The notes under the pieces are model-generated. The model ran no database searches. It was not told the DNA's origin and was given only the letters and a program-made list of their open reading frames with translations. From assembly GCA_022565195.1 (NCBI GenBank), contig JADFJZ010000030.1, positions 1 to 8,662 on the forward strand: a stretch of 8,662 nt of DNA. Reading direction: 5' to 3'. The stretch comes from Planctomycetota bacterium (GTDB lineage Bacteria; Planctomycetota; Phycisphaerae; UBA1845; CAIVHJ01). Position numbers and translations under genes: made by a program. Shown here in pieces: positions 3 through 8,662 of this stretch (position 1 is its first letter; each line of letters begins with the position of its first letter).

Positions 3-1187
3 CAAGTTGTCCTGGGCTGGTTGCTGCTGTCGTTTCCACCGGTCGTACGGGCCTTCGATTATCTGGCCAGCGGTGTGAACGTCGTCATCGGCTGTGCGGA
101 CACGGGCATTGAATTCGTATTTGGACCGCGCCTGATGGATCCGACAGGCCCCTGGGGCTTCATCTTTGCTGTCAAGGTCTTGCCGGTCATCATTTTCTTT
201 TCTTCGCTTATGGGCGTGCTGTACCACTTGGGCATCATGCAGCGCGTGGTGGCCGGTTTGGCGTGGGTCTTGCGCAGCGTCATGGGCGTGACCGGCACCG
301 AAGCGCTGGCCATGGCTGCCAATGTTTTCGTAGGCCAGACCGAGGCGCCGCTGTGCATCAAGCCCTACGTCGATAAAATGACCGTCTCGCAGCTCATGGC
401 ATTGATGGTCGGCGGATTTGCGACCATCGCGGGTTCGGTGCTTGTGGCTTACGTCGGCATTCTGGGCGGCGATGACCCGGTCCAGCGCGAACTGTTCATC
501 AAACACTTGCTCACCGCCAGCGTGATGTCGGCGCCGGCGGCGTTCGTCATCGCCAAGATCATGATGCCCGAAGTCGATACGCCGCTGGACGAACAGAAGT
601 TTCTGCAAGAGCAAAAGCATGAAACGCAAAACGTACTTGACGCCGCTGCCCGAGGCGCCACCGATGGACTCAAGCTGGCGCTGAACGTCGCCGCCATGTT
701 GATCGCCTTCGTGGCCTTGCTCGCGCTGCTGAATTGGCCGATCGGGGCTTTGGGCGATATTGGCTTAATCGCCGACTGGCGTCAGGCCCACGACATTCCG
801 CCGTTGTCGTTGGAGTATTTTCTCGGCTGGCTGTTCACCCCGTTGGCATGGTTGATGGGCGTCGAGGCGGCGGACTGCCAACCGTTCGGCTCGCTGATGG
901 GGTTGAAGATCATCGCCACCGAGTTCATTGCCTACCAGTCATTGAGCAACATGATGGTCGATCCGGCGGGTCAGGCGGAGATGTCCGTCCGATCAATACA
1001 AATTGCAGCGTACGCGTTGTGCGGTTTCGCAAACTTGCCGTCGATCGCCATCCAGATCGGCGGCTTGACCGGCATTGCCCCGAGTCGGCGGACTGATTTT
1101 GCGCGGCTGGGCCTGCGGGCGATGATCGGTGGGGCGCTGGCCTCGTGGATGACCGCCAGCATCGCGGGCATATTCCTGAGCGGCTGA
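3..1187 (+). CDS. Concentrative nucleoside transporter (CNT/NupC family), 5' partial
   Basis: Inner-membrane symporter expected to import nucleosides using an H+ or Na+ gradient. The frame is open from base 3, and residues before the first in-frame TTG (base 21) already look like a CNT membrane segment. The true start therefore lies left of the window and 395 codons are visible. Family signatures are clear: GQTEAP with codons at 333-350, TEFIAYQ with its Glu at 921-923, and FANLPS with Asn at 1032-1034 and Ser at 1041-1043. In the Vibrio CNT structure the matching Gln-Thr-Glu contact the base, and the Glu, Asn and Ser contact the ribose; all are kept here. Several long hydrophobic segments alternate with short loops. 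A soluble charged stretch (about 580-650, EQKFLQEQKHETQ) is consistent with a cytoplasmic loop. It ends with TGA 57 bases before a DUF4406 gene and lies upstream of adenine deaminase, which suggests purine nucleosides as cargo. Specificity cannot be read from sequence alone. Confidence 0.94.
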   Translation, partial: QVVLGWLLLSFPPVVRAFDYLASGVNVVIGCADTGIEFVFGPRLMDPTGPWGFIFAVKVLPVIIFFSSLMGVLYHLGIMQRVVAGLAWVLRSVMGVTGTEALAMAANVFVGQTEAPLCIKPYVDKMTVSQLMALMVGGFATIAGSVLVAYVGILGGDDPVQRELFIKHLLTASVMSAPAAFVIAKIMMPEVDTPLDEQKFLQEQKHETQNVLDAAARGATDGLKLALNVAAMLIAFVALLALLNWPIGALGDIGLIADWRQAHDIPPLSLEYFLGWLFTPLAWLMGVEAADCQPFGSLMGLKIIATEFIAYQSLSNMMVDPAGQAEMSVRSIQIAAYALCGFANLPSIAIQIGGLTGIAPSRRTDFARLGLRAMIGGALASWMTASIAGIFLSG

Positions 1188-1230
1188 TGTGCATTGAACA
1201 CTTCGCCACGGTATCATTCGAGCGAGTCGG

Positions 1231-1236
1231 AAGGAG
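1231..1236 (+). promoter_or_regulatory. Strong Shine-Dalgarno of the DUF4406 gene
   Basis: AAGGAG lies 8 bases before the ATG at 1245. It is one of the two best ribosome-binding sites in the window and fixes the start of the downstream gene. The 57-base gap after the transporter shows no convincing -35/-10 pair, so co-transcription with the transporter is likely. Confidence 0.8.
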
Positions 1237-1244
1237 AACAGTAA

Positions 1245-1778
1245 ATGAGTGATGCGCCACGGCGACTCTATCTCGCCGGCCCGATGTCGGGCTATGCGGA
1301 GCACAACTTCCCGGAGTTCAATCGCGTCGCAGCGCTGTTGCGCGCCGAAGGCTACGAGGTCTTCAACCCCGCCGAGAACGACGACGGCGGCGTGCGCCGC
1401 CCACGGTCGTTCTACATGCGGCGGGACATTCCCGCTTTGATGGACTGCGACGCGATCGCTGCCTTGCCCAACTGGCAACAGTCGCGCGGCGCCTGCTTGG
1501 AGATGTGGATCGCCATTGACCTCGACATGCCCATCTTCAACTGCCGAATGCGCGACGGCTCAGTCTCCTTGGAACCAAACAAGGCAATCGATATCAAGGC
1601 TCTGCCGTTTTCGCGCGTACCGGACGCGGATCGGCGAGAGAGACAACCCACAGATCAACGAGCGACCGGCACCGCCGACAAAACCCAAGGAGCCGCAGGC
1701 GGAATGGAATCCCGACTCGTCGGGAGCCTGCGCGAGCCCGCGGACAGATTGCCCGCAGCCGGCAGGTCGCTTCTCTAA
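1245..1778 (+). CDS. DUF4406 protein, nucleoside 2-deoxyribosyltransferase-like
   Basis: Small cytoplasmic protein of 177 residues. Residues about 7-102 match the DUF4406 pattern. They include an N-terminal strand and loop YLAGPMSG (9-16), then FPEFNRVAALLRAEGYEVFNP (a helix leading into the second strand). Next come a R-RDIPALMDCDAI block (59-71) and SRGACLEMWIA (80-90), followed by DMPIF. The Glu at residue 86 sits where nucleoside 2-deoxyribosyltransferases carry their catalytic nucleophile, so N-glycosidic bond chemistry on a nucleoside or nucleotide is plausible. The activity of this subgroup is not established to my knowledge. Many relatives are phage genes, but nothing else here is phage-like. 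The start is supported by AAGGAG at 1231-1236. The tail (about 103-177) is polar, low in hydrophobics and not recognised. The gene lies between a nucleoside transporter and adenine deaminase (26 bases to the next ATG), which suggests a purine nucleoside role. Confidence 0.85.
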   Translation: MSDAPRRLYLAGPMSGYAEHNFPEFNRVAALLRAEGYEVFNPAENDDGGVRRPRSFYMRRDIPALMDCDAIAALPNWQQSRGACLEMWIAIDLDMPIFNCRMRDGSVSLEPNKAIDIKALPFSRVPDADRRERQPTDQRATGTADKTQGAAGGMESRLVGSLREPADRLPAAGRSLL

Positions 1779-1804
1779 ACCACGGACATCAACGGAACGT
1801 CATC

Positions 1805-3523
1805 ATGGAACTCAAACGTCTCATCGATATCGCCGCCGGGCGGCAGCTCGCTGATCTGGTTTTGAAAAACGGCCGGGTGGTCAATGTCTTCACCGAAGAA
1901 ATTCTCGAAGCGGACGTGGCCATCGCGGGCGATCGCATTGCCGGCGTCGGTTCATATGAGGGGGCTGAAACGATCGACCTGGAAGGGCAGTTCGTTTGCC
2001 CAGGATTCATCGACGCCCACGTGCACATTGAATCGTCGATGCTCTCGGTGCCGGAATTCGCCAGGCTGGCCGCCGCCCACGGCACCGCCGCCGTGATCAC
2101 CGACCCCCACGAGATCGCCAACGTCATGGGCATCGATGGCATCCGCTACATGCTCGATTCCGCCAAAGGCTGCCCGTTGCGAATCTACGTCATGCTCAGC
2201 TCCTGCGTGCCCGCGTCGCACCTGGAAAGCGCCGGCGCGAACCTGTCCGCCGACGACCTGAGGCCGCTGCTCGATGATCCCTGCGTGTTGGGACTGGCGG
2301 AGATGATGAACTTCCCCGGCGTGGTCAATGGCGACGAACAGGTGCTGAACAAGCTCAAAATGTGCTCAGGCCGCGTGATCGACGGCCATTCGCCGGGGCT
2401 CACCGGGCGCGATCTGCAAGCCTACATCGCATCCGGGATCGGCAGCGATCACGAATGTACCACGCTGGAAGAAGCCCGCGAGAAGCTCCGCGCCGGCCAG
2501 TGCATCATGATCCGCGAAGGCTCGCAGGCCCGAAACCTGGAAACGCTGCTCCCGCTGGTCACGCCCGAGACGGCCCACCGCTTCATGTTCGTTACGGACG
2601 ACAAGGATGTTGAAGACTTGCTGACAGAGGGGCACGTCGATCACATCATCCGCAAGGCGATCTCGTGCGGCTTGAAACCCGCGACGGCCATTCGTCTGGC
2701 GAGCATCAACGCCGCGCGCTACTTCGGCCTGGAGTGGTTCGGGGCTGTCGCGCCGGGGTATGCTGCCTCGCTGGCGATTCTGGACAATCTCGAAGAGTGC
2801 CGCGTGCAGCGCGTCTACCACGAAGGGCAATTGATCGCCGAGCAGGGCCGATGCGTGGCCGGTGAATCCGCCGGGCCGGTACCCGTGCCCGCAAGCACTA
2901 TGAATGTACATCAACTGCAACCCGAGCAGTTTGGTATCAAATCCAGCGGCGGCGAGACGCAGAAAGTACACGTCATCGAGATGATCGAAGATCAACTTGT
3001 GACCAACCGCTGTGTGGAAGCACTGCCCGTGGTCGAGGGACTGGTGATGCCGGACCCGTCACGCGATATTGCCCAGCTTGTCGTCATCGAGCGGCACGGC
3101 GCCACCGGGCGCATGGGATTCGGTTTCATCCGCGGCTTCGGCCTGCGCGCCGGCGCGATTGCATCGACGGTGGCGCACGATGCCCACAACATCGTCATCG
3201 CCGGCACCAACGTGTCCGACATTTACGAAGCGGCGGTTCATGCAGTGAAATTGCGCGGCGGATTGTGCGCCGTGAAGAATGGAAAGGTGCTGGCGGACAT
3301 GCCGCTGCCCATCGCCGGCCTGATGAGTGACGCCCCGGCGGCGGAGGCGGGCAAGCAGCTCAGCGTCCTGCAACGTGCGACTACGCAGGAACTCGGCGGC
3401 ACGCTGCGAAAGCCGTTTATGGCACTGTCGTTTATGAGCCTGTCGGTGATTGGTTCGCTGAAAGTGACCGACCTCGGCCTGATCGACGTCGATCAGTTCA
3501 AACCGATCGAGCTATTCTTGTAG
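1805..3523 (+). CDS. ade: Adenine deaminase (EC 3.5.4.2)
   Basis: Cytoplasmic metal-dependent amidohydrolase that converts adenine to hypoxanthine plus ammonia. The 572 residues are normal for bacterial Ade. The N-terminal composite domain contains LVLKNGRVVNVFTEEI, followed by the TIM-barrel metal site: FIDAHVHIESS with His72 and His74, TDPHEIANVMG with His102, GLAEMMN with Glu166, DGHSPGL with His195 and GSDHE at 213-217. FVTDD at 262-266 supplies a late-barrel Asp. The family C-terminal domain is intact, with GFGFIRGFGL and GAIASTVAHDAHN around residues 438-465. The start at 1805 gives the usual N-terminus, but the upstream region has only a weak GGAA-type ribosome-binding site. The short spacing implies an operon with the DUF4406 gene and the transporter. 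Its TAG stop is the first three bases of a palindromic repeat. The product hypoxanthine would feed purine salvage or xanthine dehydrogenase-type oxidation; no such oxidase gene is visible in the window. Confidence 0.97.
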   Translation: MELKRLIDIAAGRQLADLVLKNGRVVNVFTEEILEADVAIAGDRIAGVGSYEGAETIDLEGQFVCPGFIDAHVHIESSMLSVPEFARLAAAHGTAAVITDPHEIANVMGIDGIRYMLDSAKGCPLRIYVMLSSCVPASHLESAGANLSADDLRPLLDDPCVLGLAEMMNFPGVVNGDEQVLNKLKMCSGRVIDGHSPGLTGRDLQAYIASGIGSDHECTTLEEAREKLRAGQCIMIREGSQARNLETLLPLVTPETAHRFMFVTDDKDVEDLLTEGHVDHIIRKAISCGLKPATAIRLASINAARYFGLEWFGAVAPGYAASLAILDNLEECRVQRVYHEGQLIAEQGRCVAGESAGPVPVPASTMNVHQLQPEQFGIKSSGGETQKVHVIEMIEDQLVTNRCVEALPVVEGLVMPDPSRDIAQLVVIERHGATGRMGFGFIRGFGLRAGAIASTVAHDAHNIVIAGTNVSDIYEAAVHAVKLRGGLCAVKNGKVLADMPLPIAGLMSDAPAAEAGKQLSVLQRATTQELGGTLRKPFMALSFMSLSVIGSLKVTDLGLIDVDQFKPIELFL

Positions 3524-3544
3524 CGGCCGGCGTCCCTGCCGGCC
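3521..3544. repeat. Dispersed palindrome, copy 1 (half-length), overlapping the ade stop
   Basis: The element begins TAGCGG and folds as a perfect 7-bp stem: GGCCGGC at 3525-3531, loop GTCCCT at 3532-3537, GCCGGCC at 3538-3544. Its first three bases are the ade stop codon. The same start, loop and stem design recur at 4882-4905. It could act as a transcription attenuator or mRNA 3'-end stabiliser, but no T-tract follows, so it is not a classical intrinsic terminator. Confidence 0.75.
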
Positions 3545-3551
3545 GTCGGGC

Positions 3552-3607
3552 CTGCTAAACGACGAAGTCAGTGCGAACGACCCTGCCGTTGGCTTGCCGT
3601 TTAGCAG
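3552..3607. repeat. 10-bp perfect inverted repeat in the ade-ygeY gap
   Basis: CTGCTAAACG at 3552-3561 is exactly matched by its reverse complement CGTTTAGCAG at 3598-3607, with 36 bases between. Inside the spacer a smaller AACG/CGTT hairpin (3576-3579 with 3587-3590) can form. No protein reading frame explains the arms. It may be a separate dispersed element or the boundary of a small non-autonomous insertion. The function is unknown. Confidence 0.65.
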
Positions 3608-3635
3608 CAGTGTGAGAGTATTGAGGCCTCCCCGC

Positions 3636-3654
3636 TGAATCAGAGGGTGATTCA
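3636..3654 (+). other. Hairpin just before the ygeY ribosome-binding site
   Basis: TGAATC (3636-3641) pairs perfectly with GATTCA (3649-3654) across a 7-base loop. The 3' arm abuts and partly shares bases with the AAGGA candidate Shine-Dalgarno at 3654-3658, which itself sits rather far (14 bases) from the ATG at 3673. It could modulate ygeY translation or be a short operator. A 6-bp stem can also arise by chance. Confidence 0.35.
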
Positions 3655-3672
3655 AGGATGTGACCACTCATT

Positions 3673-4884
3673 ATGAACCGCTCAGCAATCCTCAAACAAT
3701 CAAAGAAGTACGAAAATAAAATGGTCGCTTTTCTGCGCGAGATCGTTGCCATTCCATCCGAAAGCGGGCAGGAGCGCCGCGTCATCGAGCGCATCCGCCG
3801 CGAAATGAACAAGTTGCGCTGCTTCGATCGCGTGTGGACCGACCCGATGGGCAATCTGCTGGCCCGCATCGGCCGAGGCCCGCGACTGATCGCCATCGAC
3901 GCCCACGTTGATACGGTCGGCGTCGGCGACCCGAGCGAGTGGAAGCACGACCCGTACAAAGGCAAAGTCGCCAAGGGTGTCGTCTACGGCAGAGGCGCCG
4001 GCGACCAAAAGGGTGCCGTCCCGGCGATGGTCTATGCCGGCAAGATCATCAAAGACCTCAAGCTACGGAGCAACGACTGGTCGCTGCTGCTGACTTGTAC
4101 GGTGATGGAGGAAGACTGCGACGGGTTGTGCTGGCAATACATCGTCAACGAAGACCGCATCCGGCCGGAGTGCGTCGTCGTGACGGACTCGACGAACTGC
4201 AAGATCCTCCGAGGCCAGCGCGGGCGCATGGAGGTCGGCGTGACGGTCAAGGGCAAGTCCTGCCACGGCTCCATGCCGCACAAGGGCGACAACGCAATCT
4301 ACAAGATCGCCAAAGTCGTCAACGAGATCGAGAAGCTGAACAAGCGATTGAAGAAGGACAAGTTCCTCGGCGACGGGACAATCACGGTCTCTTATGTCGA
4401 TTGCAAGACGCCGAGCATGTGCGCCGTGCCGGGCGAAGCGTACATTCATCTCGATCGCCGCCTGACCATCGGCGAGACCAAGGCCTCCGCCTTGCGCGAG
4501 ATTCGCGACGCCGTCCGCCGCGCCGGCGTACGGGCCAAGGTGGCCATTCCGCGCTACTCCAAGCCGAGCTACACCGGCCTGGTATACGAAACCGACCATT
4601 ACTTCCCCACTTGGTGCGAGCCGGAGGACGCTCCGCAAGTCTGCGCAGCCGTTGATACATACAAGTCACTTTTCGGCAAAAAGCAGAAACCCAGCCGCTG
4701 GACCTTCAGCACCAACGCCGTCTCGATTGCCGGCATGTTCGGCATTCCCTGCGTCGGCTTCGGCCCAGCGCCGGAAGATGTCGCCCACACCGTCAATGAC
4801 TCCGTGCCGGTTGAACATCTCACCAAGTGCGCTGCGTTCTACGCGGCGTTCCCGGACACGCACTGTGCGGGGGCTCGTTGGTAG
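3673..4884 (+). CDS. ygeY: YgeY-type M20 family metallohydrolase
   Basis: Predicted cytoplasmic two-zinc amidohydrolase of the M20/ArgE/DapE fold, 403 residues, closest in motif pattern to the YgeY 'selenium metabolism-linked' group. Metal and catalytic residues are complete: AHVDTV with His78 and Asp80, GRGAGDQKGA with bridging Asp111, MEED with Glu146 (general base) and Glu147, TDS with Asp172, and EDVAHT with His372. The central part (about 180-295) is the dimerisation domain, with KSCHGSMPHKGDNA in its first half. In organisms with the ssnA/ygfK cluster YgeY is thought to act on a ureido or N-acyl intermediate of purine breakdown; the exact substrate here is inference. The ATG at 3673 places 25-30 residues before the first conserved segment, as in E. 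coli YgeY; an in-frame ATG at 3721 would be short. It runs with ade but is 149 bases away, and it converges on ygeW. Its TAG stop lies in a palindromic repeat. Confidence 0.9.
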   Translation: MNRSAILKQSKKYENKMVAFLREIVAIPSESGQERRVIERIRREMNKLRCFDRVWTDPMGNLLARIGRGPRLIAIDAHVDTVGVGDPSEWKHDPYKGKVAKGVVYGRGAGDQKGAVPAMVYAGKIIKDLKLRSNDWSLLLTCTVMEEDCDGLCWQYIVNEDRIRPECVVVTDSTNCKILRGQRGRMEVGVTVKGKSCHGSMPHKGDNAIYKIAKVVNEIEKLNKRLKKDKFLGDGTITVSYVDCKTPSMCAVPGEAYIHLDRRLTIGETKASALREIRDAVRRAGVRAKVAIPRYSKPSYTGLVYETDHYFPTWCEPEDAPQVCAAVDTYKSLFGKKQKPSRWTFSTNAVSIAGMFGIPCVGFGPAPEDVAHTVNDSVPVEHLTKCAAFYAAFPDTHCAGARW

Positions 4885-4932
4885 CGGTCGGCGTCCCTGC
4901 CGACTGACGGCCGGCACAGAGGCCGGCCGCTA
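4882..4932. repeat. Dispersed palindrome, copy 2 (full length), filling the ygeY/ygeW convergent gap
   Basis: The ends are imperfect inverted repeats: TAGCGGTCGGC (4882-4892) against GCCGGCCGCTA (4922-4932), 10 of 11 paired with one G-T wobble. Alternatively two hairpins form. The first is GGTCGGC (4886-4892), loop GTCCCT, GCCGACT (4899-4905). The second is GGCCGGC (4909-4915), loop ACAGAG, GCCGGCC (4922-4928). Its first three bases are the ygeY stop codon, and the ygeW stop is at 4938-4940. It may serve as a bidirectional transcription barrier, though T-tracts are absent. Confidence 0.8.
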
Positions 4933-4937
4933 CACCT

Positions 4938-6131
4938 CTACGCGGTTCGGCGGGGGGTGGCGCGATCGGTTAGACGGCGGAGAACCTCGGCTGGCTTCTC
5001 GAATCGTGCGAGCAAGATCATCGCCGCGATGATGAAGGGTTTGTGGGAGGCTTCGTGGTAGGTATCGAGGCGGGCGCGCTCGAAGACCTCGGCGGACACT
5101 TCGCCGGCGGCGCAACTGACGCCGGAAATGTCCGCCGGCAGGCAGTGCATGTACGACGCTTTGCCCCCGCGCGTCAGCGTCATCATTTTCTCGTTGCACT
5201 CCCAATCCTTGTGCTTGGCATTGTCCGCCAGGCACTGTTTCTCCAGATCACCGAGCTTGCTGGAATCGTCCGCCCGCAATAGCTCCGTACGTTGTTGCAT
5301 GATTTGATACGGCGCCCAGCTCTTGGGATAGACAATGTCGGCCTCGCGAAAGGCTTCTTCCATGCTGTGAACGTGCGTGAACGACCCGCCCGACTCGCCG
5401 GCGCGTGTGGCGGCGATGTCCAGCGTTTCCGGAACCAAGTCGTAGCCTTCGGGATGGGCCAGCACGACGTTCATTCCGAAGCGCGTCATCAGCGTGATGA
5501 TGCCCTGCGGCACGGACAACGGCTTGCCGTAGGACGGCGAATAGGCCCAGGTCATGGCCAGCTTCTTGCCGCGCAGGGCGTCGAGCGAGCCGAAGGTCTT
5601 TTGCAAGTGCAGCAAGTCTGACATGGACTGCGTCGGATGGTCCAGATCGCATTGCAGATTGATCACCGCCGGCCGCTGCGGCAGCACGCCCTCTTTGTGG
5701 CCCTGCTCGACGGCTTCGGCCACTTGCTGCATGTACTTGTGACCTTCGCCGAGGAACAGATCGTCGCGAATGCCGATCACTTCGGTCAGAAACGAAATCA
5801 TATTGGCAGTCTCGCGCACGGTCTCGCCGTGGGCGATTTGCGATTTGGCTTCGTCCAGATCCTGCACCGCAAGTCCCAGCAGGTTGGCGGCACTGGCGAA
5901 GCTGAACCGCGTCCTCGTGGACTTATCTCGAAAGATCGAAACCGCCAGCCCGGACTCAAACACACGGGCTGAGATATTCGCGCGGTGCAGTTCCTCCAGC
6001 ACCTCCGCCGCCAGCAACACCGCCCGCACGTCGTCGGCAGACTGCTCCCAGGTCAGCAGAAAGTCGCGCTGGTAGAGGCTGGTCGCGCGGGCCTGCAACT
6101 GCTCGATCAGTGATCGGGTCTGTTCAGACAT
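4938..6131 (-). CDS. ygeW: YgeW-type knotted carbamoyltransferase
   Basis: Member of the aspartate/ornithine carbamoyltransferase superfamily, 397 residues, the usual length of the YgeW group and longer than typical ATCase or OTCase. The carbamoyl-phosphate site is intact: DKSTRTRFSF (STRTR at 71-75), HPTQSMSD (HPTQ at 165-168) and MHCLPAD (HCLP at 329-332). The segment TWAYSPSYGKPLSVPQG after the linker fits the second, amino-substrate domain of knotted relatives such as YgeW. The true substrate of YgeW was unresolved when its structure was described. Later work on anaerobic purine degradation proposes removal of a ureido carbamoyl group to give carbamoyl phosphate; I transfer that only tentatively. 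The start has a good ribosome-binding site (GAGGAA at 6136-6141 on the - strand, 4 bases before ATG). It follows the 482-residue PLP gene on the same strand after 174 bases and converges with ygeY. Confidence 0.92.
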   Translation of the reverse strand: MSEQTRSLIEQLQARATSLYQRDFLLTWEQSADDVRAVLLAAEVLEELHRANISARVFESGLAVSIFRDKSTRTRFSFASAANLLGLAVQDLDEAKSQIAHGETVRETANMISFLTEVIGIRDDLFLGEGHKYMQQVAEAVEQGHKEGVLPQRPAVINLQCDLDHPTQSMSDLLHLQKTFGSLDALRGKKLAMTWAYSPSYGKPLSVPQGIITLMTRFGMNVVLAHPEGYDLVPETLDIAATRAGESGGSFTHVHSMEEAFREADIVYPKSWAPYQIMQQRTELLRADDSSKLGDLEKQCLADNAKHKDWECNEKMMTLTRGGKASYMHCLPADISGVSCAAGEVSAEVFERARLDTYHEASHKPFIIAAMILLARFEKPAEVLRRLTDRATPRRTA

Positions 6132-6154
6132 TTGTTTCCTCGGGAATCAATTAG

Positions 6155-6306
6155 GCCACTAAGGCACAAAGACACAAAGAATTTGAGATTTGAGATTGCA
6201 AAATACAGAATGCGTCGTCGAGAGCGGAAGTCGCGCCCGCAGCATTGACTGTTCCTCCATGCTCTATTCTCCATTTCTTCACTTTCTGCCTTGGTGTCTT
6301 TGTGGC
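6155..6306. repeat. MITE-like spacer with 25-bp inverted ends between ygeW and the PLP gene
   Basis: The left arm at 6155-6179 and the right arm at 6282-6306 are inverted copies that match at 20 of 25 positions (pattern GCCAC-AAG-CAC-AAG-CA-AAAG). The interior starts with a tandem ATTTGAG ATTTGAG (6181-6194), has AT-richer edges and a GC-richer middle, and shows no coding signal that fits a known family. The outer edge of the right arm contributes to the TAG stop of the PLP gene (6306-6308). Similar 'CACAAAGACACAAAG' spacers are, to my recollection, scattered between genes in several environmental phyla. It separates two genes that otherwise look like an operon. Confidence 0.7.
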
Positions 6307-7754
6307 TAGCTTACACCGGCGCGCTGGTTGAATTCCTCGATCAGCTTGTCCCATTCGTGTATTTGTTCAAACTGTTCGGTCCAGAAATCCGGATCCCAGA
6401 GGCGGTTCAAGTCTTCGACGGTGCGCTGTTGCTGTTCGACCCAGGTAAAATACTTGAGGTTGTGCAGGGCTTTGCGGTCGTGGTAGCTCAATTCGCGCAG
6501 GTGGTCGATGCCGATGCCTTCGAGATAGCGGCCGAAGTGCCGCGCGGCGGTCGTCTCGTCGTATGCGCCGTGCTCTTGGCGCAACTCCGCCAGCCGCGAT
6601 TGATACAAATCGACCGAATCGGTCAGCGGCGTAAACAGCACGTCGCGCGAGTCCATTTCGTAATGCTTGGCCGTCTTGATGGCGGCGACCAGGTTGCAGA
6701 CGCCCGAAATCCCCAGCAGTGGCAGTTGTTCGATCAGGTTGGCCGGGACATTCTGCCTGCCGAGAAACGCCCGGCCGGCGTCCTCGTTGAACAGCCGCAA
6801 CAGTGTCAGGCACTGCTCGTCGTCGACGGCGCAGACCATGTCGGTGTTGCGAACGTTGTGGATCCAGGGGACGTGCTTGTCGCCGATTCCCTCGATGCGA
6901 TGGCCCCCGAAGCCGCTCCGCAACAGTGTTGGACATTGCAAGGCCTCGACCGCTACGACCCGCAGCGACGGGTGCTGCGTGCGCAAGTAATCACCCGCGG
7001 CGATCGTGCCGGCGCTGCCCGTGGCCGAGACGTAGGCGGCGAGGCGGTTGCCTTGGCCGGCGATGCGACTGAAGATTTCCTCAATGATTCCGCCGGTGAG
7101 GTGGTAATGCCAGATCGAGTTACCAAACTCCTCGAACTGGTTGAAGATCACGCAGTCTGGGCGCGTGCGGCGGATTTCCCAGCACTTGTCGTAGATTTCT
7201 TTGACGTTCGATTCGCAGCCGGGCGTGGCGATGACCTCGGCGCCGATCGATTCGAGCCATTCGAAGCGTTCGCGCGACATACCTTCCGGCAGGATGGCCA
7301 CTGCCGTGCAACCCAACAGCGCGCAGTCAAACGCGCCACCACGACAAAAATTCCCCGTGCTCGGCCAGACGGCTTTCTGGGCGGTCGGATCGAATTGCCC
7401 GGTGACCAGGCGCGGCGCAAGGCAGCCGAAGCCCGCGCCGACCTTGTGCGAACCGGTCGGGAAGTACTTGCCGATCAGCCCCATGATCCGGGCGGGAACG
7501 CCGGTGAGTTCCGGCGGAAACTCGATCCAGTTGCCGTCATTGAATCCGCCGCCCGTCTCGATCGGCTCGTTTTTCCACGTGATCCGAAAGAGGTTCAATG
7601 GATCAACGTCCCACAGGCCGACGCCGGCAAGCCGCTGTTTGATCGAATCGGGGATCGTCGCCGGGTCTTTCTGCTGCGCGAACGTCGGCACCACAATGCC
7701 GCGCTCACGACACCGCTGGACAGTCTTTTCGAGCACTTGCTCATTTATTTGCAT
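6306..7754 (-). CDS. Fold-type II PLP-dependent enzyme (CysK/TrpB-like), unknown substrate
   Basis: A 482-residue cytoplasmic enzyme of the tryptophan-synthase-beta superfamily. Residue Lys104 in TGSHKVGAG is the likely Schiff-base lysine. STGNFCRGGA (132-141) is the substrate-carboxylate loop, and SATGSAGT (243-250) is the glycine-rich PLP phosphate site. The family usually spans 300-400 residues. Here about 50-60 extra residues precede the core, and a roughly 100-residue charged, Trp-rich tail follows it (WDPDFWTEQFEQIHEWDKL near the end). Proteins of this type are often annotated only as 'PLP-dependent protein subunit beta'. It lies upstream of ygeW in the position where E. coli has ygeX (diaminopropionate ammonia-lyase), but its motifs differ from YgeX. 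A lyase or ammonia-lyase acting on a diamino or ureido acid is inference. The ATG start has GGAGAA (7759-7764, - strand) 4 bases upstream. Confidence 0.85.
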   Translation of the reverse strand: MQINEQVLEKTVQRCRERGIVVPTFAQQKDPATIPDSIKQRLAGVGLWDVDPLNLFRITWKNEPIETGGGFNDGNWIEFPPELTGVPARIMGLIGKYFPTGSHKVGAGFGCLAPRLVTGQFDPTAQKAVWPSTGNFCRGGAFDCALLGCTAVAILPEGMSRERFEWLESIGAEVIATPGCESNVKEIYDKCWEIRRTRPDCVIFNQFEEFGNSIWHYHLTGGIIEEIFSRIAGQGNRLAAYVSATGSAGTIAAGDYLRTQHPSLRVVAVEALQCPTLLRSGFGGHRIEGIGDKHVPWIHNVRNTDMVCAVDDEQCLTLLRLFNEDAGRAFLGRQNVPANLIEQLPLLGISGVCNLVAAIKTAKHYEMDSRDVLFTPLTDSVDLYQSRLAELRQEHGAYDETTAARHFGRYLEGIGIDHLRELSYHDRKALHNLKYFTWVEQQQRTVEDLNRLWDPDFWTEQFEQIHEWDKLIEEFNQRAGVS

Positions 7755-7784
7755 ACGATTCTCCGCTACAGCATATCCCGCAAG

Positions 7785-7813
7785 TTGGCAGAACGAAGCG
7801 GGTGAGCTATCTT
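7785..7813 (+). promoter_or_regulatory. Sigma70-like promoter for the threonine-synthase-like gene
   Basis: TTGGCA (7785-7790, 5 of 6 to consensus) and TATCTT (7808-7813, 4 of 6) are separated by exactly 17 bases. Transcription would begin near 7820, leaving a leader of about 24 bases that holds the GAGGAG ribosome-binding site before GTG 7844. The site lies in the divergent gap with the 482-residue PLP gene, so a regulator binding here could affect both. No clear operator palindrome is visible. Confidence 0.5.
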
Positions 7814-7828
7814 ACCATGCAATCGAAC

Positions 7829-7834
7829 GAGGAG
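7829..7834 (+). promoter_or_regulatory. Shine-Dalgarno deciding the GTG start
   Basis: GAGGAG lies 9 bases before GTG 7844. It favours that codon over the in-frame ATG at 7817, which has only GGTGAG 10 bases upstream and would precede the predicted transcription start. Confidence 0.65.
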
Positions 7835-7843
7835 AAACCGATC

Positions 7844-8662
7844 GTGTCGCTGGTGACCAACCTCATTTGCGTGAACTGCCAGGCCGAATACGCCGAAGGC
7901 CAGGCCGACGTTTGCCCGCAGTGCGGCATCGATGAGGGCATTCTGGATGTCTGCTTCGATCTGGCTGCCGCCGGCAAGACGCTGACGCGGGCGGCGCTGG
8001 CTGAGCGTCCGCCGTCCATCTGGCGTTATCGCGAGGTACTGCCTGTCGACGGCGCTCCGCCCGCCGGTTTGGAACAAATCGGCTGGACGCCGCTGATCGA
8101 GGCCCCGCGCCTGGCGGCTGACCTCGGCATCGGCCGACTGCGACTCAAGGACGACGGCCGGAGTGCGTCTGGCTCGTTCAAAGACCGGGCCAGCGCCATC
8201 GGCGTGGCTCGGGCGCTCGACGAGGGCACCGGCGAAGTGGCCTGCGCCTCGACCGGCAACGCCGCCAGCAGCCTGGCCCATTGCGCGGCAGCCGTCGGAC
8301 TGCGTGCGAACATCTTTGTCTCCGAAATGGTGCCGGAAGGCAAGCTCGCACAGTTGCTCGCCTACGGCGCACGGGTCTTCAAGGTTCGCGGCACGTACGC
8401 CCAGGCCTATGAGTTATGCATGCAGGCCTGCCGCGAGTTCGGCTGGTATAACCGTAACGCGGCGATCAATCCGTATTTGGTCGAGGGCAAGAAGACCGGC
8501 GGGCTGGAGGTGGCTGAGCAGTGCGCGGATGATCCGCCCGACTGGGTGGTGTGCAGCGTCGGCGACGGCTGCTCGATCGCCGGAGTACACAAAGGCCTGC
8601 GAACAATGAAGGAAGTTGGTGTGATTGACTGGACCGCGCGAATGCTCGGCGTGCCGGCCGCC
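7844..8662 (+). CDS. Threonine-synthase-like PLP enzyme with N-terminal zinc ribbon, 3' partial
   Basis: The frame is open to the last base of the window; 273 codons are visible from GTG 7844 (282 from the alternative ATG 7817). An N-terminal zinc ribbon has Cys9-x2-Cys12 and Cys24-x2-Cys27. The fold-type II PLP core then begins with GWTPLIEAPRLAADLGI. Lys113 in SASGSFKDRAS is the expected PLP lysine, and STGNAASS (136-143) is the substrate-carboxylate loop. GDGCSIAG near the edge fits the glycine-rich phosphate site. Threonine synthase converts O-phosphohomoserine to threonine, and the zinc-ribbon class is common. However, the position beside ygeW, ygeY and a second PLP enzyme makes a catabolic lyase role (for example on diaminopropionate or serine/threonine-like substrates) a real alternative. 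No homoserine kinase or dehydrogenase is visible to support threonine synthesis. It has its own promoter and is divergent from the other PLP gene. Confidence 0.85.
   Translation, partial: MSLVTNLICVNCQAEYAEGQADVCPQCGIDEGILDVCFDLAAAGKTLTRAALAERPPSIWRYREVLPVDGAPPAGLEQIGWTPLIEAPRLAADLGIGRLRLKDDGRSASGSFKDRASAIGVARALDEGTGEVACASTGNAASSLAHCAAAVGLRANIFVSEMVPEGKLAQLLAYGARVFKVRGTYAQAYELCMQACREFGWYNRNAAINPYLVEGKKTGGLEVAEQCADDPPDWVVCSVGDGCSIAGVHKGLRTMKEVGVIDWTARMLGVPAA

Follow-up and report, generated by a model that had tools for sequence, protein, structure and literature searches.

The window considered here, the whole 8,662-nucleotide stretch of contig JADFJZ010000030.1 from a Planctomycetota bacterium, has seven protein genes, encoding a CNT nucleoside transporter, a DUF4406 protein, adenine deaminase, YgeY, YgeW, and two enzymes dependent on pyridoxal phosphate (PLP) that we call PLP1 and ThrC-like. 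Its sequence marks it as a variant form of the reductive urate pathway cluster. We put a probability of about 0.6 on the reading that these Planctomycetota are set for anaerobic reductive degradation of purines or urate, with PLP1 and ThrC-like performing the step that belongs to YgeX in E. coli. The unusual feature is the pair of PLP enzymes, since one would expect YgeX in their place. The direct evidence consists of gene content, homology, synteny, co-occurrence, and an altered threonine-synthase signature.

The pathway was shown biochemically in 2025 (PMC12507026). The E. coli route starts with XdhD-YgfM, which reduces urate to 2,8-dioxopurine (yanthine). Yanthine is then reduced and opened by YgfK and SsnA, HyuA yields 2,3-diureidopropionate, YgeW and YgeY take off the two ureido groups, YgeW by phosphorolysis of 2,3-diureidopropionate, and YgeX turns 2,3-diaminopropionate (DAP) into pyruvate and ammonia (PMC12507026). 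The sequence of the two ureido removals is disputed (PMC12990295). Formate was reported as required for anaerobic urate degradation in Enterococcus UAD1 and E. coli, the pathway is under engineering against gout, and the label "selenium-linked" for it is older than the 2025 biochemistry (PMC12507026).

The window in its genomic neighborhood

The window is 95.1% identical over 8,665 alignment columns to contig C16 (JACZTW010000016.1) of genome G001, the metagenome-assembled genome (MAG) Planctomycetota bacterium B14T1B10, and its YgeW is 97% identical to that of the MAG. The DNA is thus from Planctomycetota, in keeping with the earlier note on this stretch, to which the lineage looked neither enterobacterial nor clostridial. 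Whole-genome statements below rest on G001, which is 80% complete and has the above identity across the window, and on other genomes; MAG flanks and genomes are incomplete. Curated models are read against NCBIfam cut-offs, and Pfam is used for domains.

Past ThrC-like, G001 encodes a probable SsnA, a 666-aa YgfK-like protein, and an 899-aa molybdenum hydroxylase, all less than 9 kb from the window genes; the other flank has a methyltransferase-like gene. SsnA scores 429 bits against NF005540 (cut-off 444) and 398 bits against TIGR03314 (cut-off 455.5), slightly under the cut-offs of what are by far its best families. The YgfK-like protein scores 372.5 bits against TIGR03315 (cut-off 835), with only positions 5-404 of 1012 matched, and the hydroxylase scores 964 bits against TIGR03311, above the cut-off of 830. 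Because SsnA, the N-terminal half of YgfK, and this xanthine dehydrogenase (XDH) homolog stand beside the same genes in G001, the window appears to be a piece of an SsnA/YgfK/XDH neighborhood, as the earlier note had supposed in calling it a variant of the ssnA/ygfK/xdhD locus and in proposing a look at the flanks. A hydantoinase is found elsewhere in the genome, unlinked to the cluster (C177; 37% identity to E. coli HyuA; TIGR02033 457 bits, cut-off 393), and could serve pyrimidines. The gene order, for which a search of relatives had also been proposed, recurs: PLP1-YgeW-YgeY with SsnA and ThrC-like is present in Planctomycetota loci L009, L047, and L071, the latter two with XDH as well. The YgfK-like protein at L004:3536-5533 (relatives in L047, L071, L173, and L178) covers in L004 the model's N-terminal portion alone, and its lack of the GltD-like NAD(P)H half suggests another electron donor, for example ferredoxin.

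Set beside the E. coli cluster (xdhD, ygfK, ssnA, hyuA, ygeW, ygeY, ygeX; PMC12507026), the window has YgeW and YgeY in common, and G001 likewise has a probable SsnA, a YgfK-type N-terminal half, an XDH homolog, and a hydantoinase. The differences are that G001 has no YgeX by an NF006058 search at 1e-30, with PLP1 and ThrC-like instead; that its YgfK-like protein matches part of the model only, and its molybdenum hydroxylase is of the TIGR03311 type without the loop of XdhD Glu606; and that adenine deaminase and a nucleoside transporter are attached. The uricolytic cluster of C. difficile, with UacX and UacY, likewise has replaced parts, including an XDH without YgfM; there YgeX is kept and YgeW replaced, whereas the planctomycete keeps YgeW and is missing YgeX (PMC12507026).

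The two PLP enzymes and the place of YgeX

All reactions given here for this organism are inferences, most of all what PLP1 and ThrC-like do. CNT would import nucleosides, from which bases would be released, possibly with a contribution of DUF4406; adenine would be deaminated to hypoxanthine, and the adjacent molybdenum hydroxylase would oxidize hypoxanthine towards urate. Urate would be reduced to yanthine and dihydro-yanthine, SsnA and the hydantoinase would open the ring to give 2,3-diureidopropionate, YgeW and YgeY would strip the ureido groups to leave DAP, and the PLP1 and ThrC-like pair, in place of YgeX, would convert DAP to pyruvate and ammonia. ThrC-like would be the likelier direct counterpart of YgeX, with PLP1 taking a companion step or another isomer. 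Since hypoxanthine to urate frees 4 electrons and urate to dihydro-yanthine uses 4, a version fed with adenine would be redox-neutral and would not need formate, and adenine or hypoxanthine could be fermentable without it.

By Pfam, both window PLP enzymes carry the general PALP domain only, and this PF00291 fold is common to them and YgeX (DAP ammonia-lyase, NF006058). Neither reaches the YgeX cut-off of 276 bits; ThrC-like scores 43.6, and for PLP1 no match to NF006058 was reported. Profile comparison with YgeX by hhalign gives 97% for ThrC-like and 62% for PLP1. YgeX Asp120, presumably the catalytic residue, aligns with Thr in both.

ThrC-like is 98% identical to a 425-aa protein of G001, which at full length scores 186 bits against the threonine synthase model TIGR00260, above the cut-off of 167, and 268 bits against NF006050, under the cut-off of 303. 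The ThrC-like sequences form a clade separate from canonical threonine synthases with support 100/100. Signature residues were counted in 35 rows (25 ThrC-like and 10 canonical), after L343 and L344 (weak dehydratase-like matches) and L350 and L352 (wrong reading frame) had been dropped and identical rows merged. The Ser and Arg of NS-NPxR and the Asn of VGN, which we take to be phosphate-binding residues of threonine synthase, are each found in all 10 canonical sequences; among the 25 ThrC-like ones, Ser is found once, and Arg and Asn never. The Gln of EGQK is also replaced, the place of the Asn is taken by an invariant Asp, and ThrC-like has instead an invariant Arg218 and A-D-S and G-D-G motifs, besides four invariant cysteines in an N-terminal segment.

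PLP1 scores 105 bits against TIGR01139 (cysteine synthase A), far under the cut-off of 351. Structure comparison gives it a fold of the type of CysK and cystathionine beta-synthase (CBS), and with these enzymes it also has in common the S-T-G-N loop (S132-T133-G134-N135) and the Gln that follows (Q206); it differs from them in extra N- and C-terminal segments and in an identity of 18-28% in the structure lists. The list for PLP1 has no row for a DAP ammonia-lyase, which says nothing against a shared fold. Relatives of PLP1 are labelled cysteine synthase or merely PLP-dependent enzyme in the sources listed, and the distant ones, about 45-58% identical and found in deep Planctomycetota, may have different functions; in G004 and G020 such a distant relative adjoins SsnA.

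How the two enzymes are distributed was asked with 80 YgeW loci, picked by likeness to the planctomycete protein, so that Clostridia are missing from them. YgeX is in 8 of the 8 enterobacterial or aeromonad loci and in 0 of the other 72; for PLP1 the numbers are 0 of 8 and 28 of 72, and for ThrC-like 0 of 8 and 25 of 72. The 72 include many short contigs, which makes a missing neighbor weakly informative. Protein clustering of 102 loci (the window, L004, 79 YgeW loci, 20 Bacteroidota PLP1 loci, and L178) returned YgeW, YgeY, XDH, PLP1, SsnA, ThrC-like, YgfK, HyuA, yqeB, yqeA, and xdhB as the commonest families; yqeB-like genes are in 22 of the 102, and of the 37 rows in the ThrC group, 12 are without a ThrC match and look like antisense frames.

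At the level of genomes, 100 that bear YgeW include 82 with PLP1 and 18 with YgeX: 76 have PLP1 only, 12 YgeX only, 6 both, and 6 neither. The Fisher p value for these counts is 2e-7, or 0.011 without the eight enteric or aeromonad genomes, both too small because genomes share ancestry. The first 78 YgeW genomes were chosen by likeness to the window YgeW. The 49 genomes behind L007-L056 (minus L045) have PLP1 (1e-40) in 45, YgeX (1e-30) in 7, and both in 5, and the 29 behind L057-L085 have them in 19, 9, and 1. Among 294 Planctomycetota, YgeW (1e-90) is in 17, of which 13 are above its cut-off, PLP1 (1e-100) in 26, and both in 13, so PLP1 occurs in 13 of 17 genomes with YgeW versus 13 of 277 without. 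Those 13 of the 17 have no YgeX; two others, G198 and G231, carry YgeX but give no PLP1 match at 1e-100 (YgeW, YgeY, and YgeX are consecutive in G198), and G045 and G124 (59% complete) have neither. Among 247 Bacteroidota, 6 have YgeW and 22 have PLP1, which is in 6 of 6 genomes with YgeW versus 16 of 241 without; YgeX was not found in the five of these YgeW genomes that are outside the earlier counts. Of the 22 Bacteroidota PLP1 loci 20 were fetched, and 19 of those are near SsnA, YgeY, YgeW, YgfK/UacX, HyuA, or an XDH homolog, even where YgeW is a divergent relative (31-41%) or unseen.

YgeX stands among pathway genes in 11 genomes, and 10 of these (eight enteric or aeromonad, G198, and G618) are without PLP1, the exception being G601. 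The order PLP1, ThrC-like, XDH, SsnA is found in Bacteroidota loci L292-L294, L317, and L320, and in L311 in the opposite orientation. G601 instead reads PLP1, YgeX-family protein, XDH, and G618, with no PLP1 at 1e-40, reads YgeX-family protein, XDH, SsnA, HyuA, so that YgeX fills the ThrC-like position in both. Of 22 genomes, only these two are without a TIGR00260 match of at least 159 bits, their best being 56 and 93 bits. For the remaining five YgeW genomes that have both PLP1 and YgeX, the surroundings of YgeX showed no pathway gene. The YgeW tree groups the enterobacterial clade with Kiritimatiellota, Verrucomicrobiota, Riflebacteria, and one alphaproteobacterium in a set of 17 rows (100/97), to which four of these five genomes also belong (L017, L018, L021, and L042). 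This suggests stepwise replacement, but the tree has a very distant outgroup, an uncertain root, many weak deep forks, and no Clostridia sampled. As a separate observation, Bacteroidota G374, G413, G467, and G398 (L286-L290) have, besides PLP1, YgeX-family genes at sites where no urate gene was seen, with a YgeV-like sigma-54 regulator nearby in G413 and G467.

Alternatives and conflicting observations

A number of findings weigh against the proposed role of the pair. PLP1 is without a YgeW match (1e-90) in 16 Bacteroidota and 13 Planctomycetota genomes, and YgeW is without PLP1 in G618, G045, G124, G594, G600, G296, and G310, six of which are also without YgeX. In the Planctomycetota draw, a pathway gene is near PLP1 in only 4 of the 23 loci fetched (of 26), and of 33 PLP1 loci from YgeW genomes, 16 have no pathway gene within the stretch and 17 have one, in a choice of loci that leans to PLP1 lying outside the YgeW locus. 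Five further genomes have PLP1 together with a YgeX-family gene far from pathway genes. In the ThrC-like set, 5 of the 25 sequences carry an Arg one residue past the Arg column. The molybdenum hydroxylase of the cluster (L004:796-3492), like the Bacteroidota XDHs, is without the loop bearing E. coli XdhD Glu606, which is present in two spirochaete homologs (L067 and L074), which makes a role for it in yanthine formation questionable. Finally, with PLP1 beside YgeX in G601, PLP1 alone cannot simply be "the YgeX", and PLP1 as the sole replacement was dropped on that account.

What, then, might PLP1 do? The two enzymes could act in sequence, PLP1 putting water or a thiol in place of the beta-amino (or ureido) group on DAP or albizziin to give serine or cysteine, and ThrC-like then acting as a dehydratase or lyase to give pyruvate. 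The CysK/CBS fold, which is that of beta-replacement enzymes, and the S-T-G-N loop and Gln speak for this, as does the adjacency of the PLP1 and ThrC-like genes in several phyla (L293, L296, L302, L312, L316, L320); we nevertheless think it unlikely, as G601 keeps PLP1 with a YgeX that requires no such first step, and no sequence feature indicates the nucleophile. It also seems rather doubtful that ThrC-like is the DAP ammonia-lyase by itself, with PLP1 merely co-occurring while it serves a different purpose connected with anaerobic amino-acid metabolism. The slot exchange does affect ThrC-like and not PLP1, ThrC-like is the nearer to YgeX by profile, its invariant Asp could hold a cationic amino group, and PLP1 is often distant from pathway genes, but PLP1 tracks YgeW across phyla and is missing from nearly all of the genomes with YgeX among pathway genes.

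An improbable role for PLP1 is the removal of urea from albizziin directly, with YgeY bypassed. Eight of 20 genomes have no YgeY match (1e-80), and seven of them, including G298, have PLP1 and YgeW; on the other hand, YgeY is near PLP1 in many loci (11 of 20 in Bacteroidota), and G279, which has neither YgeW nor YgeY, retains both PLP enzymes, as though they came into play once both ureido groups are gone. That an ordinary threonine synthase and an ordinary cysteine synthase are here by chance would be in agreement with the TIGR00260 score of ThrC-like and with some Bacteroidota (e.g., G324) that are without a second ThrC above the cut-off. We consider this highly improbable and largely refuted already by the separate clade and altered signature of ThrC-like, by two more TIGR00260 matches in G001 (one above the cut-off), by the cysteine synthase score of PLP1, and by a link with urate genes that recurs across phyla.

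Other genes of the window and exchangeable modules

The genes in Table 1 are of the seven kinds that the earlier note had listed, at or close to the span it gave for the locus, and that gene content stands. The plus strand encodes CNT to YgeY and, at the far end, ThrC-like, whereas YgeW and PLP1 are read from the minus strand, so this is not a single operon. Both edge genes extend past the window ends; CNT has as its counterpart in G001 a 432-aa open frame with 98% identity. DUF4406, with an 86% identical homolog of 180 aa in G001, scores 27.5 bits against PF05014 (Nuc_deoxyrib_tr), just under the cut-off of 28.8. YgeY and YgeW are also above the cut-offs of NF009555 (538 bits) and NF005538 (665 bits), respectively.

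Table 1. Protein genes of the 8,662-nucleotide window
Feature	Positions	Strand	Model match
NupC-family CNT nucleoside transporter, 5'-truncated by the window edge	3..1187	+	TIGR00804 380 bits (cut-off 442); PF07662 256 bits
DUF4406, nucleoside-deoxyribosyltransferase-like, putative function	1245..1778	+	PF14359 74 bits (cut-off 22)
Adenine deaminase (adenine to hypoxanthine)	1805..3523	+	TIGR01178 633 bits (cut-off 472.5)
YgeY, M20-family hydrolase of the reductive urate pathway	3673..4884	+	TIGR03526 529.5 bits (cut-off 321.5)
YgeW, knotted carbamoyltransferase	4938..6131	-	TIGR03316 628 bits (cut-off 500)
PLP1, CysK/CBS-like fold-type-II PLP enzyme with C-terminal extension	6306..7754	-	PF00291
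ThrC-like fold-type-II PLP enzyme, N-terminal four-cysteine segment, 3'-truncated	7802..8662	+	PF00291 167 bits

The earlier note had also taken the nucleoside and adenine genes as the variant's own front end. Conservation of this front end was not supported: adenine deaminase with CNT was found in 1 of the 80 YgeW loci, many of them short, namely that of the near-identical relative L006, and the front end looks like a lineage-specific addition. Between the genes, a scan of the window and L004 with Rfam gave no riboswitch or other element at the gathering threshold. Hairpins at 3524-3545, after the adenine deaminase gene, and at 4885-4904, between the convergent ends of ygeY and ygeW, have a common core, GGCGTCCCTGCC, and are possibly a repeated terminator-like element. 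In the intergenic region 6132-6305, ACTAAGGCACAAAGACACAAAG ... CTTTCTGCCTTGGTGTCTTTGTG form an inverted repeat that is imperfect and may be an interspersed palindromic element.

Other parts of the pathway seem exchangeable as well. G279, a genome from the class to which G001 belongs, gives no match for YgeW at 1e-90 or for YgeY at 1e-80. Beside its SsnA are, at L178:2297-4539, an M20 hydantoinase/carbamoylase (TIGR01879 383 bits, cut-off 204) and a nitrilase-family protein whose sole family match (1e-30) is N-carbamoylputrescine amidase, with a score of 140 against a cut-off of 410; XDH, half-YgfK, PLP1, and ThrC-like are retained. The row of carbamoylase, amidase-like protein, SsnA, and PLP1 is seen again in G004 (L176). 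It looks as though two plain hydrolyses replace the phosphorolysis and hydrolysis of YgeW and YgeY while the PLP enzymes stay as they are, which would be expected of enzymes acting last. L010 has, in place of YgfK, a PreA/UacX-type reductase with a GltD-like partner (NF006183 460 bits, cut-off 335), in likeness to UacX, and a similar-looking frame was noted by eye in L014. The genome of L010, G298, is a single 3.79-Mb record titled chromosome and has YgeW, PLP1, ThrC-like, SsnA, and XDH. A candidate in L014 for a second, ornithine-type carbamoyltransferase replacing YgeY was rejected, being aspartate carbamoyltransferase (TIGR00670 243.5 bits, cut-off 237); the copy in L015 resembles it by look alone.

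As to what the findings mean, we offer tentatively, at somewhat under even odds, that in some ten phyla by record titles, mostly environmental MAGs, the pathway ends in an unrecognized pair of PLP1 and a ThrC-derived enzyme taking DAP to pyruvate and ammonia, and that the E. coli version with YgeX would be derived, a substitution particular to its lineage within a pathway that is older and environmental. Our limited literature search found nothing joining YgeX with threonine synthase, or planctomycetes with SsnA and xanthine dehydrogenase, and an earlier mention is possible. The published survey took SsnA as its marker and read PF00291 as standing for YgeX (PMC12507026), and since PLP1 and ThrC-like carry PF00291, it would have missed the substitution. 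In 2025 a commentary asked whether the pathway is an ancient environmental one or a recent gut adaptation and leaned to the latter (PMC12990295). YgeW loci occur in MAGs titled groundwater, fen, sediment, and marine, and these, with the enterobacterial clade nested among environmental ones, point away from a recent gut adaptation, given a tree of uncertain root. The environmental YgeW loci make the question of origin testable, and the relatives of PLP1 would gain a concrete function that is cheap to test.

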